A DNA stretch of 32,299 nt from Synergistaceae bacterium (GTDB lineage Bacteria > Synergistota > Synergistia > Synergistales > Synergistaceae): NCBI GenBank assembly GCA_031260185.1, contig JAIRKI010000094.1:1-32299 (forward strand), read 5' to 3'. This document shows, in pieces, positions 24,150 through 31,894 of the stretch. How positions within the stretch are numbered: position 1 is the first letter of the stretch; every line of letters begins with the position of its first letter. Under the pieces are notes generated by a model, which was given only the letters and a program-made list of their open reading frames with translations, did not search any database and was not told the DNA's origin. Made by a program: the position numbers and the translations under genes.

Positions 24150-24330
24150 GTTTTTTATGTTTAATTTTGAAGACCTTGATTTTCGCGTTGATATTCTCAA
24201 TCAGAATATGCTCGCGAGAAATATGGCGGTTTTCACTCTTTCTGTGATATCATTGTGCCGTTGGATACGCGCGGGGATGTCCGCCGGTGAATTGCTCGAG
24301 AAGTTTGATAAGGAGAATGTACAGACGTGA
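24150..24330 (+). CDS. Small hypothetical ORF translationally coupled to ppk (start uncertain within ORF 24019-24330)
   Basis: C-terminal part MFNFEDLDFRVDILNQNMLARNMAVFTLSVISLCRWIRAGMSAGELLEKFDKENVQT; stop TGA overlaps ppk ATG (TGATG). Confidence 0.45.
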
Positions 24331-26450
24331 TGAACGGCGAAGCGGCGGAAGTTCCGCCGCAAGATAATCCTGAAAAGAGAAACGAGTACATAAATCGGGA
24401 ACTGAGCTGGGTGCGCTTCAACCGGAGAGTTCTCGACGAGGCGTTCGACAAGTCCAAACCGCTTTTGGAACGGGTGAGGTTTGCCGCGATTTTCGCGAAC
24501 AACCTCGACGAGTTTTTCATGATAAGGGTCTCCGGTCTGGTGCGGCAGCTCAAGAACGGGGTGGTTTCCCTGCCTCCGGACGGAATGACCCCGTTGGAAC
24601 AGCTCGTCGCCATTCGCAAGGCCATAGCGTCGGACGCAAAAAGATTGCTCGAGTGCTGGCACGGCGAACTTCAGCCGGAGTTGCGCGAGAACGGCATAGA
24701 AATACTGAATTTCAGGCAAATATCCGAAAAACAGGGACATTTTCTCGACCGGTATTTCAAAAACGAGATATTTCCGACGCTGACGCCGCTCGCGTTCGAT
24801 CCCGGACACCCTTTTCCGCATATCTCGAACCTCAGCCTGAGTTTCGCCCTCGCGCTCCGCGACGAAAAGGGGCACGAACGTTTCGCGAGGCTCAAAATAC
24901 CCGAGTCGTTCCCGAGGCTCTTTCAGATACCGCCCGAATCCGGAAGCAAAGATGACGGGATGGGATTGCGCGGTTCGCGGACCGCGACGTTCGTGTGGCT
25001 CGAGGATATCATAGAGGCAAACCTGAGCGCGCTGTTTCCCGGAATGACCATAGAGGGCGCCGTGTTGTTCCGCGTCACGAGGGACACCGATTTCGAGATA
25101 GAGTCGGACGAAGCCGAAGACCTGCTCCATTCCATACGCGAGAACGTGGAAAAACGGCGTTTCGGCCTCGCCGTCAGGCTCCAGACAGAGCGCGGGGTCC
25201 CGAAGCGCATAAGGGAAATTTTGACGCGCAATCTCGAATTGGACACATTTCAGGTATATTCCACTGAATTCCCCGTGGGGCTGTCGTCGCTGATGCAGCT
25301 TTACAGCCTCGACCGGCCCGAATTGAAATATCCGCCCTTCACGCCGGGAATGCGCCGCGAGACCCGCGACAGGCATAAGATATTCGACGCCGTCCGCGAG
25401 CGCGACATACTGCTCTATCACCCATACGACAGCTTCAAGCCGGTGGTCGATTTCATATGCGAATCCTCGCGTGATCCGGACGTGCTCGCGATAAAGCAGA
25501 CGCTTTACAGGGTGGGGGCAAATTCGCCGATAGTCGACGCGCTCAAGGATGCGTGTTCGAGGGGCAAGCAGGTGGCCGCCCTGGTGGAACTCAAGGCGCG
25601 GTTCGACGAGGAGAACAACATCGGCTGGGCGAGGGCGCTCGAAAGCGCGGGCGTCCACGTCGTCTACGGCCTGCCGGGACTTAAGACCCACGCCAAGATA
25701 TGCCTGGTCGTCAGGCGCGAGAAGGACGGAATCAGGCGTTACGTCCACCTCGGCACCGGAAACTACAACGCCGTCACCGCCGGCATCTACACCGATTTCG
25801 GGTTGTTCACCGCGAACCCCGACATAGGCGCCGACGCCTCCGACCTTTTCAACGTGCTCACCGGCTACTCGGCGCTGAAAGAATACCGTAAACTGCTGGT
25901 GGCCCCGCATACCCTCCGGCGCGAGATAATATCGAGGATAGACCGCGAGATAAGCCGTCACGCCGAGAGCGGGGACGGCCGCCTGATATTCAAGCTCAAC
26001 GCCGTCTCCGACAAGGAGAGCATCGACGCGCTCTACCGCGCTTCCCGCGCCGGAGTCGAAATCGACCTGCAGGTGCGCGGCATCTGCTGTCTCAGACCGG
26101 GCGTCGCGGGTTTGAGCGAGAACATCAGGGTATCGAGCATCGTCGGGCGTTTCCTCGAACACACTCGCGCTTTTTACTTTCGCAACGGCGGCGACGGGGA
26201 ACTGTACCTCGGCAGCGCCGACCTCATGACGCGCAATCTCGACCGCCGCGTCGAATGTCTCTTTCCCGTGGAGTCGCCCGAGATACGCCGTGAGATAATG
26301 GATTCGATACTGCCCGCGCATCTGGCCGACAATGTCCAGTGCCGCGAACTCGGCCCGGACGGAGCGTACGCGAAACTCGCCCCCGGCGACGCCCCCGCCG
26401 TCGATTCGCAGCGGGCGATGCTGGAACTGCGATGCGGTTTGAGGGAGTAA
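24330..26450 (+). CDS. ppk1: Polyphosphate kinase 1
   Basis: YINRELSWVRFNRRVLDEA, LLYHPYDSFKPVVDFI, IKQTLYRVGANSPIVDAL, KTHAKICLVVRREKDGIRRYVHLGTGNYN. Confidence 0.96.
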   Translation: MNGEAAEVPPQDNPEKRNEYINRELSWVRFNRRVLDEAFDKSKPLLERVRFAAIFANNLDEFFMIRVSGLVRQLKNGVVSLPPDGMTPLEQLVAIRKAIASDAKRLLECWHGELQPELRENGIEILNFRQISEKQGHFLDRYFKNEIFPTLTPLAFDPGHPFPHISNLSLSFALALRDEKGHERFARLKIPESFPRLFQIPPESGSKDDGMGLRGSRTATFVWLEDIIEANLSALFPGMTIEGAVLFRVTRDTDFEIESDEAEDLLHSIRENVEKRRFGLAVRLQTERGVPKRIREILTRNLELDTFQVYSTEFPVGLSSLMQLYSLDRPELKYPPFTPGMRRETRDRHKIFDAVRERDILLYHPYDSFKPVVDFICESSRDPDVLAIKQTLYRVGANSPIVDALKDACSRGKQVAALVELKARFDEENNIGWARALESAGVHVVYGLPGLKTHAKICLVVRREKDGIRRYVHLGTGNYNAVTAGIYTDFGLFTANPDIGADASDLFNVLTGYSALKEYRKLLVAPHTLRREIISRIDREISRHAESGDGRLIFKLNAVSDKESIDALYRASRAGVEIDLQVRGICCLRPGVAGLSENIRVSSIVGRFLEHTRAFYFRNGGDGELYLGSADLMTRNLDRRVECLFPVESPEIRREIMDSILPAHLADNVQCRELGPDGAYAKLAPGDAPAVDSQRAMLELRCGLRE

Positions 26451-26454
26451 CTTC

Positions 26455-27390
26455 ATGGGGGGGGGGGGGGGCGTTGTCGTCGCCATTCCATGCTACAACG
26501 AAGAGCGAACGATAGCCAAAGTCGTGTCGGATTTCAGGCGGGCGCTCCCCGAGGCGCGCGTCATAGTGTTTGACAACCGATCGACCGACATGAGCGCGAA
26601 GTTGGCGGTCATCGCGGGCGCTGAGGTAATTTACGTCGGCCGCCGGGGCAAGGGCGCCGTTTTGAGGCATCTTTTCCGTGAGATAGACGCGGACGTTTAC
26701 CTCACGGCTGACGGCGACGACGCGTGTCCGGCCGATACGGCGAAAGATCTGATTTCCCCGATATTGAACGGCGATGCGGATATGGCCATAGGCGACAGAA
26801 TATCCGGGGGCGGCTACAAGCGGGAGAACAGGAGAAAATTTCATAATTTCGGCAACGAGCTCGTCAGCGCGCTGGTCAACGGGTGTTTCGGCGCGGAGAT
26901 ACGCGACGTGATGTGCGGTTACAGGGCTTTCAGCAGGAGATTGGCCGTCAATGTGCCCATACTCTCGGACGGTTTCGAGGTGGAGACAGAGATGACCGTC
27001 AAGTGTCTCGAAAGAAAGCTCGCCATCGCGCAGATACCGATCCCCTTTCGCGACAGGACAGCCGGAACCCAGTCGAAACTCAGGACTTTTCGGGATGGAA
27101 TCAAAGTCTTGCATACCATTGCCAGTACGTTAAAAAATTATAAGCCGCTCGCTTTTTTCGGGACGTTCGGTCTTATGTTCGCGTGTTTCGGGCTTTTTTG
27201 CGGAGCGCCCATTATAATGGATTTTGTGAGAACCGGCGGCACGCCGCGCGTCCCTCTGTCCGTACTGGCCGCCGGATTGGAACTCGTCGCCATGACGTTT
27301 TTCATATGCGCGTTCATCCTGGATACGATGATCGCCTACGAAAGATCCCGAAACGAGATGGAGATACTCAAATTCGGCGATCGCGAATGA
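26455..27390 (+). CDS. Family 2 glycosyltransferase (polyprenyl-phosphate sugar transferase/DPM1-like, two C-terminal TM segments)
   Basis: VVVAIPCYNEERTIAKVV, VFDNRSTD, TADGDDACPAD, DVMCGYRAFSRRLA; C-terminal hydrophobic helices; start codon embedded in poly-G. Confidence 0.88.
   Translation: MGGGGGVVVAIPCYNEERTIAKVVSDFRRALPEARVIVFDNRSTDMSAKLAVIAGAEVIYVGRRGKGAVLRHLFREIDADVYLTADGDDACPADTAKDLISPILNGDADMAIGDRISGGGYKRENRRKFHNFGNELVSALVNGCFGAEIRDVMCGYRAFSRRLAVNVPILSDGFEVETEMTVKCLERKLAIAQIPIPFRDRTAGTQSKLRTFRDGIKVLHTIASTLKNYKPLAFFGTFGLMFACFGLFCGAPIIMDFVRTGGTPRVPLSVLAAGLELVAMTFFICAFILDTMIAYERSRNEMEILKFGDRE
26457..26471 (+). repeat. 15-nt poly(G) tract at the GT2 start codon
   Basis: Direct reading: CTTCAT followed by 15 G then CGTTGTCGTC. 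Confidence 0.95.
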
Positions 27391-27403: not shown

Positions 27404-28654
27404 ATGCGTGAGATATTGGAATCGAAAAAAATCTTGGTTGCGCTACTTTTATGTTTTGTCCTGGTCGCCGTAACCGATGTCATAATTCCCGGAAAGACAT
27501 ATATGCCGGATGAGAACGCTTACTTGCGGCAGACAAAGAGCGTGGCTGAAACTGGTATTCTGGCTTTGGGAGAGCACAGGGCGGCGAATATGCCGATCCC
27601 CATGATAATTTACGCTCCTTTTTACAGATTGTTGGGAAATGAAAGCGTCTTTATAAAATTTGTCCGGGTGATTCAGGCTTTGGCGCATATAGTGACGGCG
27701 ATTGGCGCGGCGTCGATAGCTTTTTCCATCTTCAAGAACAGGGCGACGGCGATTATAACGTTGTTTGGAACGGCGATATATCCATCGTTATTGGCATATC
27801 AATGCCTGCTGTTGACCGAGACGTTATTCACGTGTTTTCTTGTTCTGGGCTTCGCTTTTCTTTACGCCTGGAGACCTGAACGCCCTGGTGCTTTCGTGCT
27901 GTCGGGGCTGTGTTTCATGTTGTCCCTTTATACCCGGCCCGTGATAACTATGCTGATGCCCCTGTTATTTCTCGCCAGAGGATTTGTAATTTTTGATCAT
28001 ACAGGGCGGCGCTTGAGATATTGCCTTTATTCCTGCATCATATTTCTCGTGTGCGCCGCGCCCTGGTGGATAAGGAACTGGAATATTTTCGGCGAGTTCG
28101 TTCCCTTTACGACATACGCGTCGAGAAATCTATACCTCGGAAATAATCGCGGTAATTTTACGGGGGGAGTGGAATGGAGTACTGACGCCCCGCCCGAGGA
28201 AGTGGCGGAATTGCTGTCCGCGGGGAGCGAGACGGAAATATCCCGGGCGTTTACCGCGAAGTCAATATCCTATATTCGCGAAAACAAAGTTGTGTTTCTC
28301 GCTAACGCATGGAAAAAATTCAAGCGATTCTGGAATTTTACCCTGAATACCGATTCTGCAAAACTTCCCAAGTATTTTCAGTATTATAACATAGCGTCCA
28401 TTTTGAGCTGGGGAACGGCGTTTTTTCTCGCTCTCGCCACCTTGTGGAGAAAACGTAAGGAGTGGTTCGTATTGCTGCCGCTCTTTTTACTCGTAGGTTA
28501 TTACGTATTTGTTCATGTCGTGACAATCGCTTCTTTGAGATACCGTCTTCCGATAGAACCATTTTTTGTCATCCTGGGGGCGGACAGCCTGCGCGTTATT
28601 TTCGAGCGTTCAGGCGTTGGAAAGTCGTCTGTTGAACAGGATAACGCGCGATAA
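27404..28654 (+). CDS. Polytopic GT-C/GT39-like membrane glycosyltransferase
   Basis: 416 aa, ~10 hydrophobic segments; early PDENAYLRQTKSVAETG loop with acidic residues typical of GT-C lumenal/periplasmic loop 1. Confidence 0.75.
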   Translation: MREILESKKILVALLLCFVLVAVTDVIIPGKTYMPDENAYLRQTKSVAETGILALGEHRAANMPIPMIIYAPFYRLLGNESVFIKFVRVIQALAHIVTAIGAASIAFSIFKNRATAIITLFGTAIYPSLLAYQCLLLTETLFTCFLVLGFAFLYAWRPERPGAFVLSGLCFMLSLYTRPVITMLMPLLFLARGFVIFDHTGRRLRYCLYSCIIFLVCAAPWWIRNWNIFGEFVPFTTYASRNLYLGNNRGNFTGGVEWSTDAPPEEVAELLSAGSETEISRAFTAKSISYIRENKVVFLANAWKKFKRFWNFTLNTDSAKLPKYFQYYNIASILSWGTAFFLALATLWRKRKEWFVLLPLFLLVGYYVFVHVVTIASLRYRLPIEPFFVILGADSLRVIFERSGVGKSSVEQDNAR

Positions 28655-29819
28655 CAAGTACGCCGGTTACGCCGTCGTGACCGACGGTCTTTGGAGAAAA
28701 AGCGTCAGCGTGGTGAGATCCTTGGGTAAAGCCGGTTATCACGTCGCCGTGATGGGCGATACTTACGCGACGACCGGGTTCTGGTCGAGGTATACGGCTT
28801 CGCGTCACGTATGCGCGTCGGCCTCCGACGACGTGGGCGCTTTTGGCCGCGGTCTGTTCGAACTGCTGGGGAGTTACGACATAAAACCGGTGCTGTTTCC
28901 TATGGAGGACGCGAGCATTGTTTGGTGTTCCGCTCATCGCGGGGAGATTCTGCCGTTAGCCGACATATTGTTGCCGCCGGATGATTCTTTGAGCCATGCC
29001 GAGAACAAAGCGGATACCATAAAACTTGCGGCAAATCTAGGCATACCTTGCCCGAAAACGTATTTCGCGCATAATCCTGAAGAAGCAGAACATTTCGCGG
29101 GTCTGTTTGTACGGAGAAGTTTCGTGGTGAAACCGTTCCATGGTTCCGGAGCAGTCGGTGTAAAATATTTGAATTCCGGGGACAAAATCGACTGGAACAC
29201 ATATTTCGTAGCGTATGGGCCTTGTCTGATACAGGAACGCATCCCGGAATCGGGAGAAGCTCTCGGGGTTTCGGTGCTGATGGATACTTGCGGCCGGCTT
29301 GCGGCAGCTTTTACCCACAAGAGGACGGAACAGTATCCGAATTCCGGCGGTGCAAGCACGCAGAGGATAAGTGCCCGAAACGACGAAGTCATGCGTCAAA
29401 GCGTCAAATTGCTCGAATCTCTCGGTTGGCGCGGGGTCGCTATGGTGGAATGGAAGAAGGAGCCTGTCAGCGGCAAATACCTTCTCATGGAGATAAATCC
29501 CCGTTTCTGGGGCAGTCTTGAACTGGCCGTCCGCTCGGGGGTCGATTTTCCGTTGTTATACGCGAGGGCCGCGCAAAAACTGGACACGGAACCGGCAAGC
29601 GAATATAAAACAGGCATCAAATGCCGCTGGCTGTTGCCGGGCGATATATTGAGGTACATCACAAAAAAAAACAGAGAAGGTATAGGGGATTTCATGCGCG
29701 GGATACTGAACGAGAGCGAGGAATGGGACGTCTCGGACAAAAGAATTTTTTTGTTTTCCATATTGTGTCAGGCATATCTCGCGTTGAACCCAAAATACTG
29801 GAAGTTCCTCAGGAGATGA
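28632..29819 (+). CDS. ATP-grasp domain protein (carboxylate-amine ligase-like)
   Basis: AVVTDGLWRKSVSVVRSLGKAGY, ENKADTIKLAANLGIPCPKTY, FVVKPFHGSGAVGV, LIQERIPESGEALGVS, LLMEINPRFWGSLELAV; probable TTG start at 28632, overlapping the GT-C 3' end. Confidence 0.82.
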   Translation: MNRITRDNKYAGYAVVTDGLWRKSVSVVRSLGKAGYHVAVMGDTYATTGFWSRYTASRHVCASASDDVGAFGRGLFELLGSYDIKPVLFPMEDASIVWCSAHRGEILPLADILLPPDDSLSHAENKADTIKLAANLGIPCPKTYFAHNPEEAEHFAGLFVRRSFVVKPFHGSGAVGVKYLNSGDKIDWNTYFVAYGPCLIQERIPESGEALGVSVLMDTCGRLAAAFTHKRTEQYPNSGGASTQRISARNDEVMRQSVKLLESLGWRGVAMVEWKKEPVSGKYLLMEINPRFWGSLELAVRSGVDFPLLYARAAQKLDTEPASEYKTGIKCRWLLPGDILRYITKKNREGIGDFMRGILNESEEWDVSDKRIFLFSILCQAYLALNPKYWKFLRR

Positions 29820-29826
29820 CTCTGCC

Positions 29827-30666
29827 GTGGCGAATATTTTTTCAGTCGATCTGGAGGATTGGTATCACGCGAATTATAACCGCGGCTCGGAAAGCGGCGT
29901 CGCGCGGGGCGAATCGATAATTCCACGGAATGTAATGAAAATCCTCGATCTGTTGGACGAAAATGGCTCTAAATGTACTTTTTTCGTGCTCGGGCAGGTA
30001 GCGGAAAAATTCAAGGACATATTGAGAGATATCGCAGCGAGAGGACACGAGATAGCCTCACACGGATTCGACCACAAGCTCGTATACAGCCAGACCGAGA
30101 AAGAATTCCGAGAGGATGTCCGCCGCGCTAAAGGCACGCTCGAAGAGATAACGCGAAAGGAGATAAAAGGTTACCGCGCCCCTTCGTGGTCTATAACGGC
30201 TCGTTCGCTATGGGCCTTGCCAATATTGCTGGAAGAGGGTTATAGATACGATTCGAGCATATTTCCCACGCAAAACTTCATGTACGGGATAAAAAACGCC
30301 CCCAGATTCGCGCATGTCCACAATCTCGCGGCCGGAAACTTACTTGAGGTACCTCCTTCCACCGTGAGGTTTTGCGGGACGAATATTCCATTCTCCGGTG
30401 GGTTTTATTTCAGGGTATGTCCTGAATTTATGATAAAGACATTCTCGCGTATCGTGAGCCGAAGCGGGTATCCGACGGTGTTTTACATTCATCCGAGGGA
30501 GATAGATACGCGCCAGCCACGGCTTGAACTGACTTTCAAGAACAAGTTTATTCATTACGCCGGAATTAAAAACTGCCTGAAAAAATTGACTTCCATCATG
30601 TCGGCTTTCCCGATGACATCGATTGAAATTTTTTATGGAAAATTTTTCCGTGAGGGCGTCTTATGA
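29827..30666 (+). CDS. Polysaccharide deacetylase, DUF3473/exosortase-cluster (TIGR03006-like) type
   Basis: NIFSVDLEDWYHANY, CTFFVLGQVAEKF, HEIASHGFDHKLVY, GYRAPSWSI, FYIHPREIDTRQPRLELTFKNKFIHYAG; GTG start. Confidence 0.85.
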   Translation: MANIFSVDLEDWYHANYNRGSESGVARGESIIPRNVMKILDLLDENGSKCTFFVLGQVAEKFKDILRDIAARGHEIASHGFDHKLVYSQTEKEFREDVRRAKGTLEEITRKEIKGYRAPSWSITARSLWALPILLEEGYRYDSSIFPTQNFMYGIKNAPRFAHVHNLAAGNLLEVPPSTVRFCGTNIPFSGGFYFRVCPEFMIKTFSRIVSRSGYPTVFYIHPREIDTRQPRLELTFKNKFIHYAGIKNCLKKLTSIMSAFPMTSIEIFYGKFFREGVL

Positions 30667-31505
30667 AAGACGCGAACATGATGAAATGCGCGGTGTGCGG
30701 CGGGGTTATGCCGAAAGATGAAGCGAGTTACTATTCTTGCGCCTCCTGTGGATATATGGCGTCCGACATGAGAGCGTCCGCCGGTTCCGAATCGGCGGAC
30801 GCTCTTGAATCGGTGCGGGTCGCCAACTTCGGCGATATATGCGGGGTATTGAAATCGCGGTATTCCCCCCCCCTGAAAAGTGTTTTGGACATTGGCTGCG
30901 CGGGAGGTTTGTTTTTGAAATTCGCCGCCGGTGAAGGTTTTGATTGCTTCGGTCTGGAACCGGAACCGGCTAAGGCGTCCTTGGCGCGTGAGCGCGGATG
31001 CGTTGTCGGGACTGGTTTCTTTCCCGATGCGGAGTGGCTCGGCGGGAAAAAGTTTGACGTAATTATTTTCAACGATTCCTTCGAGCACATCCCAAATCTG
31101 GCGGGCGTCATAAATGGGATAAAACGACACCTTAACGAAAACGGCGTCGCCGTAATCAATCTTCCGTCGAGCGGAGGCATAATATTCGCGGTAGCGTCGC
31201 TGCTGTCAAAATTTGGCGTATGGGGTCCTCTGCATCGTTTATGGCAGAGGGGCATCGTTTCTCCTCATCTGCACTACTTCAACCCGAAAAATCTGGAAAT
31301 CCTGTTCGCGCGAAACGGATTCAAAATGGACCTCGTTTTGCGCCTTAAATATTACTCACTGGATAGATTGTGGACAAGATGCCGTTACCATTCGTCCATT
31401 TTTGCATCCGTGATTTCATTTTTGGGACTCCTGTTGCTGTATCCTTTTTCAAGATGGAAGAGCGATGTATTCGCGGCGTTTTTCAGGAGAGATATGAAAA
31501 ACTGA
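30663..31505 (+). CDS. Class I SAM-dependent methyltransferase with N-terminal zinc ribbon
   Basis: CAVCGGVM...YYSCASCGYM zinc ribbon; VLDIGCAGGLFLKFAAGEGFDCFGLEP motif I; FNDSFEHIPNL; overlaps previous stop. Confidence 0.85.
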   Translation: MKDANMMKCAVCGGVMPKDEASYYSCASCGYMASDMRASAGSESADALESVRVANFGDICGVLKSRYSPPLKSVLDIGCAGGLFLKFAAGEGFDCFGLEPEPAKASLARERGCVVGTGFFPDAEWLGGKKFDVIIFNDSFEHIPNLAGVINGIKRHLNENGVAVINLPSSGGIIFAVASLLSKFGVWGPLHRLWQRGIVSPHLHYFNPKNLEILFARNGFKMDLVLRLKYYSLDRLWTRCRYHSSIFASVISFLGLLLLYPFSRWKSDVFAAFFRRDMKN

Positions 31506-31507
31506 GG

Positions 31508-31715
31508 TCCTCGCACCGGAGTGGTTATCCTGGATAACTGTTCCACGGACAGGAGCGCCGAACTTGCCGCCGAAGCGGAGGTTATTTACGTGGAGAGGCA
31601 GGGCAAGGACGCCGTTTTGAGATATGTTTTCAGGGAGATAATGGCGGACATCTACGTGACGGCTGACGGCGACGGCGTGTGTCCGGCCTGCGCCGAGAAA
31701 GATTTGATAATTCCG
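31508..31715 (+). pseudogene. Frameshifted partial copy of the family 2 glycosyltransferase (paralogue of 26455-27390)
   Basis: LDNCSTDRSAELAAEAEVIYVERQGKDAVLRYVFREIMADIYVTADGDGVCPACAEKDLI aligns with FDNRSTDMSAKLAVIAGAEVIYVGRRGKGAVLRHLFREIDADVYLTADGDDACPADTAKDLI. Confidence 0.85.
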
Positions 31716-31894
31716 TTATATTCGCGCGCGCCCTTTTTAAACCATGAGTACCCTTTATAAAACTTCCCCTCCGGAACATTTGGGAGCCCTGTTAAAACAG
31801 TGATATCATGATGTCTTTTTCTCAAAGATAAACAAATATCATTAATCCTGAAATTTTCAGGCCAAAAATACTGACTTACCACCAGAATTTTCAT
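31710..31894 (-). pseudogene. 3'-truncated WbuB/WcaI-like (GT4-type) glycosyltransferase, N-terminus only
   Basis: MKILVVSQYFWPENFRINDICLSLRKRHHDITVLTGLPNVPEGKFYKGYSWFKKGAREYNGI is a typical N-terminus; frame then enters antisense GT2 remnant; RBS GGGGAGAG before ATG at 31894. Confidence 0.75.

Follow-up and report, generated by a model that had tools for sequence, protein, structure and literature searches.

A 15-G homopolymer within the start codon of a Synergistaceae glycosyltransferase gene as a probable phase-variation switch

Does an uninterrupted run of 15 G residues that begins inside a start codon turn the gene behind it on and off? The window analyzed here, a 32,299-nucleotide stretch corresponding to one contig (C83) of a metagenome-assembled Synergistaceae genome (1.43 Mb, 140 contigs, 72.9% complete), carries such a run at the 5′ end of a GT2 glycosyltransferase gene. 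A sequence-only reading of this DNA had described the run as lying within the start codon, and a direct count confirms this placement, with the G of the ATG as the first residue of the run. The features that bear on the question are the following.

26457 to 26471, + strand: putative slippage tract, a 15-G homopolymer that starts with the third base of the ATG at 26455-26457
26455 to 27390, + strand: GT2 glycosyltransferase gene, 311 aa, open (ON) at 15 G
26441 to 26447, + strand: Shine-Dalgarno-like GAGGGAG, 7 nt 5′ of the ATG, read from the sequence
26432 to 26434, + strand: upstream ATG, in a frame that a tract of 13 or 16 G would connect to the gene

We interpret the tract, with a probability of roughly 0.84, as a slipped-strand contingency locus that is currently ON and is one of several in this genome. 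Under this mechanism, slipped-strand mispairing during replication would add or remove G residues in the run. At 12, 15, or 18 G, a ribosome starting at the ATG at 26455 would make the full enzyme (ON), and at the remaining lengths it would meet a stop after 18 to 40 codons (OFF), with weak expression from the ATG at 26432 a possible exception at 13 or 16 G. Frame prediction gives an open frame of 309 to 313 aa for the G9, 12, 15, 18, and 21 alleles, a TAG stop after 18 to 21 codons for G11, 14, 17, and 20, and a TGA stop after 37 to 40 codons for G10, 13, 16, and 19. The earlier estimate of a TAG at about 20 codons with 14 G is borne out (19 codons); for 16 G, the predicted TGA is correct, but it falls at a computed 39 codons instead of about 45. 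Gain or loss of a single G would break the gene, as would be expected of a contingency locus, and no later start occurs before codon 24. The first downstream in-frame candidate is a GTG at that codon, past the AIPCYNEE/nucleotide-binding motif, in agreement with the earlier claim that no start lies ahead of the catalytic core. The upstream ATG at 26432, which the same reading had overlooked, has a GGAA before it and could provide a weak third expression state at 13 or 16 G, or may be a chance occurrence.

The length of the tract sets it apart from the other G runs of the window, which number 20 of 5 G, three of 6 G, none of 7 or 8 G, and one of 9 G. By a first-order Markov estimate, runs of at least 15 G are expected ≈9e-5 times in the window and 0.008 times genome-wide, so the tract is far beyond chance length, as slipped-strand contingency loci are. 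The single 9-G run, at 2175-2183, lies immediately 5′ of the infB start codon and overlaps the end of the preceding gene. At the start of the glycosyltransferase gene, RNA structure showed no excess stability (z = -0.34). Tract length itself is to be read with the uncertainty that attaches to homopolymers in a fragmented metagenome assembly, here a single one.

Comparison with related proteins indicates that the start codon is genuine and the tract new. The window protein begins MGGGGGVVVAIPCYNEE, with a leader that consists entirely of glycine and is encoded throughout by GGG. Relatives from Synergistaceae begin MSSEKKIVVAIPCYNEE, MGEETRIVVAIPCYNEE, MQNSNRIVVAIPCYNEE, and MTSNGRIVVAIPCYNEQ, and one from a bin labeled Holosporales begins MKRYDEIVVAIPCYNEA. 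All five share a six-residue leader before IVVAIPCYN and the same start position, which rules out a mis-called start codon; the leader sequence itself is not conserved. Because GGG accounts for just 21% of glycine codons in the sampled window genes, and the relatives have no glycine run at this place, the six-glycine leader is not forced by the protein. A G run at the start position was found in none of the five related genes, one of which has an A9 run at the position of the tract. Since the relatives lack the tract yet use the same start codon, we regard the tract as a gain in the window lineage, most likely a recent one. The sequence-only reading had held that orthologs lacking the tract and starting elsewhere would speak against a switch; in the relatives the tract is indeed absent, but the start is shared.

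The gene behind the tract is intact. Its product matches the GT2 profile PF00535 with 63.5 bits, above the gathering score of 23.3, and its closest solved structure is the dolichyl-phosphate mannose synthase 5mlz. The best NCBIfam model is AglJ (TIGR04182, E 2e-61), followed by a dolichyl-phosphate hexose transferase. The protein thus resembles AglJ/DPMS-like GT2 enzymes in its whole-length TIGR04182 match and in its structural match, but it differs from AglJ in scoring far under the equivalog cut-off of that model (207.9 versus 325 bits), and for this reason we do not assign its substrate. Hydrophobic stretches near the C-terminus were noted by eye, and by class the enzyme is a predicted polyprenyl-phosphate sugar transferase. 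Relative to the gene of a sister species (G001), differences number 93, 39, and 22 at codon positions 3, 1, and 2, respectively, a pattern that indicates purifying selection.

The gene stands at the head of a glycan cluster, and its surroundings are as follows.

24327 to 26450, + strand: polyphosphate kinase gene ppk1, which ends 4 nt ahead of the putative switch gene's ATG
27404 to 28654, + strand: membrane protein directly 3′ of the GT2 gene, with weak PMT_2 (GT-C type) similarity (E 5e-5, below the Pfam cut-off)
28566 to 29819, + strand: ATP-grasp protein of the same cluster, from profile matches
29827 to 30666, + strand: polysaccharide deacetylase of the XrtA/PEP-CTERM type (TIGR03006)
30663 to 31505, + strand: methyltransferase of the same cluster, which holds a C9 tract
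30865 to 30873, + strand: the C9 tract, where the sister species has CCCCACTTT, with a 3-nt gap

The gene order of the cluster is kept in the sister species, with 87.5% DNA identity over 4.9 kb. The sister contig starts 48 bp past the 15-G tract, and the counterpart of the tract falls outside it. Over the same 4.9 kb there are only two gaps, both of 3 nt; one of these is the C9 run, which probably grew recently and in frame. At the end of the cluster (31506-31720) we also observed a remnant of a second GT2 copy, with a 198-bp match 86% identical to the sister gene. Within this setting, the enzyme would most likely load a sugar onto a polyprenyl-phosphate carrier, for a glycan made or decorated by the downstream cluster; here we infer both sugar and acceptor. 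Switching would then give some cells of the population an altered surface glycan.

A record of changes in run length is available from a dispersed repeat of the form TTTTTGGAGAA-G(7-11)-TGACATTTTCACTG, which occurs in ten copies (C22, C43, C49, C50, C61, C79, C99, C115, C119, and C121) and probably represents one end of an insertion sequence. The flanks are common to nine of the ten copies and, insertion junction aside, differ there at one base. The most variable part of the repeat is its G run, which reads 7, 9, 9, 9, 9(A), 9(AG), 10(A), 11, and 4-A-4 in nine copies. The repeat copies and the C9 gap show that G/C runs change length over evolutionary time, which is distinct from a 15-G tract that switches among living cells; variation of the tract in the present-day population is our inference. 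A separate observation on C121 concerns long dinucleotide repeats near a contig end (about 160-510), which in one frame translate as (CV)n and (RE)n.

Companion tracts in the same genome point to a system of several loci. With contig ends and the dispersed repeat left out of the tally, runs of at least 12 G occur at C32:4627 (G12), C40:13944 (G16), and C42:1896 (G13) and in the window (G15), where the first-order Markov estimate is 0.4 genome-wide. All four lie in genes for a methyltransferase (C32 and C40) or a glycosyltransferase (GT4 in C42, GT2 in the window), although the C32 methyltransferase has housekeeping neighbors and is not clearly a glycan gene. The C40 glycan cluster, which also encodes a Bac_transf sugar transferase and a DegT aminotransferase, has a G9 run in a NeuD-type acetyltransferase gene and a G10 run in a PylC-like ATP-grasp gene, and both genes are split at the run. 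In the first, TIGR03570 positions 3-48 match upstream and positions 59-201 downstream in another frame. In the second, a 25-residue upstream piece matches positions 1-24 of a carbamoyl-phosphate-synthase-like model (E 3e-4), and PylC-like_N positions 16-96 match downstream in a different frame; relatives of this gene are too distant for tract lengths to be compared. Both splits look as expected of OFF alleles. The C-terminal tail of the GT4 gene and an unassigned gene at C23:20647 also appear split, by eye only. Other runs of at least 9 G follow a MATE gene, precede infB, lie in a gene of unknown function, or sit near contig ends, and one further run follows a gene that reads as ribosomal protein L23. 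Overall, several candidate loci are present in the genome, concentrated in surface genes, as read from hand-chosen frames rather than from a blind enrichment test. Loss of mismatch repair can be set aside as a cause, since the genome retains a MutS gene whose open frame is long. The presence of MutS counts somewhat against a switch, as it tends to reduce slippage, though without preventing it altogether.

To see how far this pattern extends, the tracts of relatives may be considered, again in hand-chosen reading frames and not as a blind enrichment test. The nearest named relatives are Synergistaceae genomes such as Nc350_bin37 and Kf353_bin45, presumably from termite-gut samples. In a genome of the same genus (G009), G19 lies in frame within a GT2 domain, a WbuX-type N-acetyl sugar amidotransferase gene carries C13 at its 5′ end, and G11 occurs in both a radical SAM gene and an acetyltransferase-like gene. 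A genome of the same family (G031) has G13 in a GT2 gene, a TylF methyltransferase gene with C12 at its 5′ end, and C12, C13, and G10 in radical SAM genes. A G11 run divides its α-1,3-fucosyltransferase gene (GT10; G031:C33 5867-7061, L250) between two frames, the first matching FucT_N and the next Glyco_transf_10. Profile matches place splits of the OFF-allele kind in the NeuD, ATP-grasp, and G031 fucosyltransferase genes, the window gene itself being ON. In G001, G002, and G009, C11-C17 runs lie inside or beside signal peptides, assigned by eye, of secreted proteins. Prepilin-like genes with an N_methyl motif have G11 or G12 at the 5′ end or just before it in G004 (L258, near 1081) and G031 (L248, near 2002).

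Shorter runs are a different matter. In G015, a high-GC, single-contig genome of the same family, G10-11 runs lie mostly in in-frame housekeeping genes, which rules out the notion that every G10 run is a switch and makes such runs alone weak evidence. Elsewhere in the family, the single-contig genome G025 has a G10 run between TTGACT and TAAAAT (G025:C1:3083917-3087927, L195, around 2001), a promoter-like spacer in which transcriptional phase variation is possible. In G055, from another family of the order, we observed about 20 runs of G10-13, mostly intergenic and many of them after an AT-rich, TATACTT-like stretch.

The G015 runs, found even in ftsZ and a Mur ligase gene where switching would be senseless, lend some weight to a reading in which the run has expanded neutrally within an N-terminal leader that is dispensable and tolerates it, mutates occasionally, and is no selected switch. 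The unconserved leader and the absence of the tract from related proteins fit this reading as well. It is nevertheless improbable, because it leaves unexplained why glycosyltransferase or methyltransferase genes hold all four runs of at least 12 G that lie clear of contig ends when 0.4 such runs are expected genome-wide, why tracts split two or more further glycan genes, and why the bias toward surface genes recurs in relatives.

An assembly or sequencing artefact, with a real run length other than 15 and split genes produced by homopolymer errors, has a very small chance of being correct. The tract is known from a single assembly, several other G runs sit no more than about 100 bp from a contig end, and some of the splits could indeed be assembly errors. 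Against this, the tract joins unique sequence on both sides, its length keeps the gene exactly in frame with a start that relatives share, and the pattern recurs over many different genes and genomes. HiSeq 2500 and 4000 instruments are four-colour machines, free of the false poly-G of two-colour chemistry. These instruments were used in a large termite-gut metagenome study (PMC9137090), the probable source of relatives like these; the genome of the window presumably belongs to the same study, in which case false poly-G would not be expected in it. Slippage of the polymerase or ribosome at the run, yielding a fixed protein mix from one DNA sequence, is hardly credible, for although polymerase slippage at long homopolymers is discussed in PMC3711429 and could rescue split genes, the examples cited in that paper mostly concern runs of A or T, the gene is already in frame so that its output could only drop, and the repeat copies differ in length at the DNA level.

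What favors a slipped-strand contingency locus, and bears out the earlier proposal of a candidate phase-variation switch, is the conjunction of a conserved start, an intact gene under purifying selection, tracts in surface genes, split genes, and variable runs in repeats. This mechanism predicts tracts in surface-glycan genes, splits at those tracts, and G runs of variable length, and the observed pattern fits.

Loci of this kind are well known. Poly-G contingency loci of Campylobacter jejuni lie in surface-glycan and flagellar genes and feature long in-gene G runs, ON/OFF switching by frame, and several loci per genome; PMC8224891 deals with phase variation of phage receptors in Campylobacter. 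The window locus shares the long in-gene run, the association with surface-sugar genes, the multiplicity of loci, and the frame-based logic; unlike those loci, it occurs in a Synergistaceae genome with MutS present, and its run begins in the start codon itself. Neisseria lgtA and pglA, which act in LPS and pilin glycosylation, likewise have a glycosyltransferase frame switched by the length of a G/C homopolymer, but there the run is internal, whereas that of the window starts at the ATG. The Haemophilus lic loci use alternative starts in different frames, and the ATG at 26432 could similarly add a third level at 13 or 16 G; the repeat is mononucleotide here and tetranucleotide there, and the second start is a candidate. 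The split GT10 gene of G031 resembles Helicobacter pylori futA/futB, phase-variable α-1,3-fucosyltransferase genes with poly-C runs, with the difference that it belongs to a relative and the window gene is a GT2 gene.

What may be new is the lineage. Among the papers searched on Synergistetes/Synergistota we found no report of phase variation, consistent with the sequence-only reading, which was not aware of an established case there. A large survey that includes two Synergistetes genomes counts frame transitions and, in its available portion, does not name such genes (PMC3711429), and a general homopolymer survey makes no mention of the phylum (PMC2831843).

The presumed benefit of switching would be evasion of phages or of the host or its protists. 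A more ambitious proposal, which we consider unlikely in its full form, is that termite-gut Synergistaceae possess a large, fast-turnover repertoire of G/C runs in genes for surface glycans, pilins, and secreted proteins, in which the genes are specific to each species, many surface combinations arise, and some loci have three levels by way of a second start. Homopolymer phase variation is best known from vertebrate mucosal bacteria. If a multi-gene repertoire of this kind does exist in insect-gut bacteria, it would suggest that surface switching responds to something besides vertebrate immunity, phages or gut protists for example, and split glycan genes in such genomes may be OFF alleles rather than pseudogenes.
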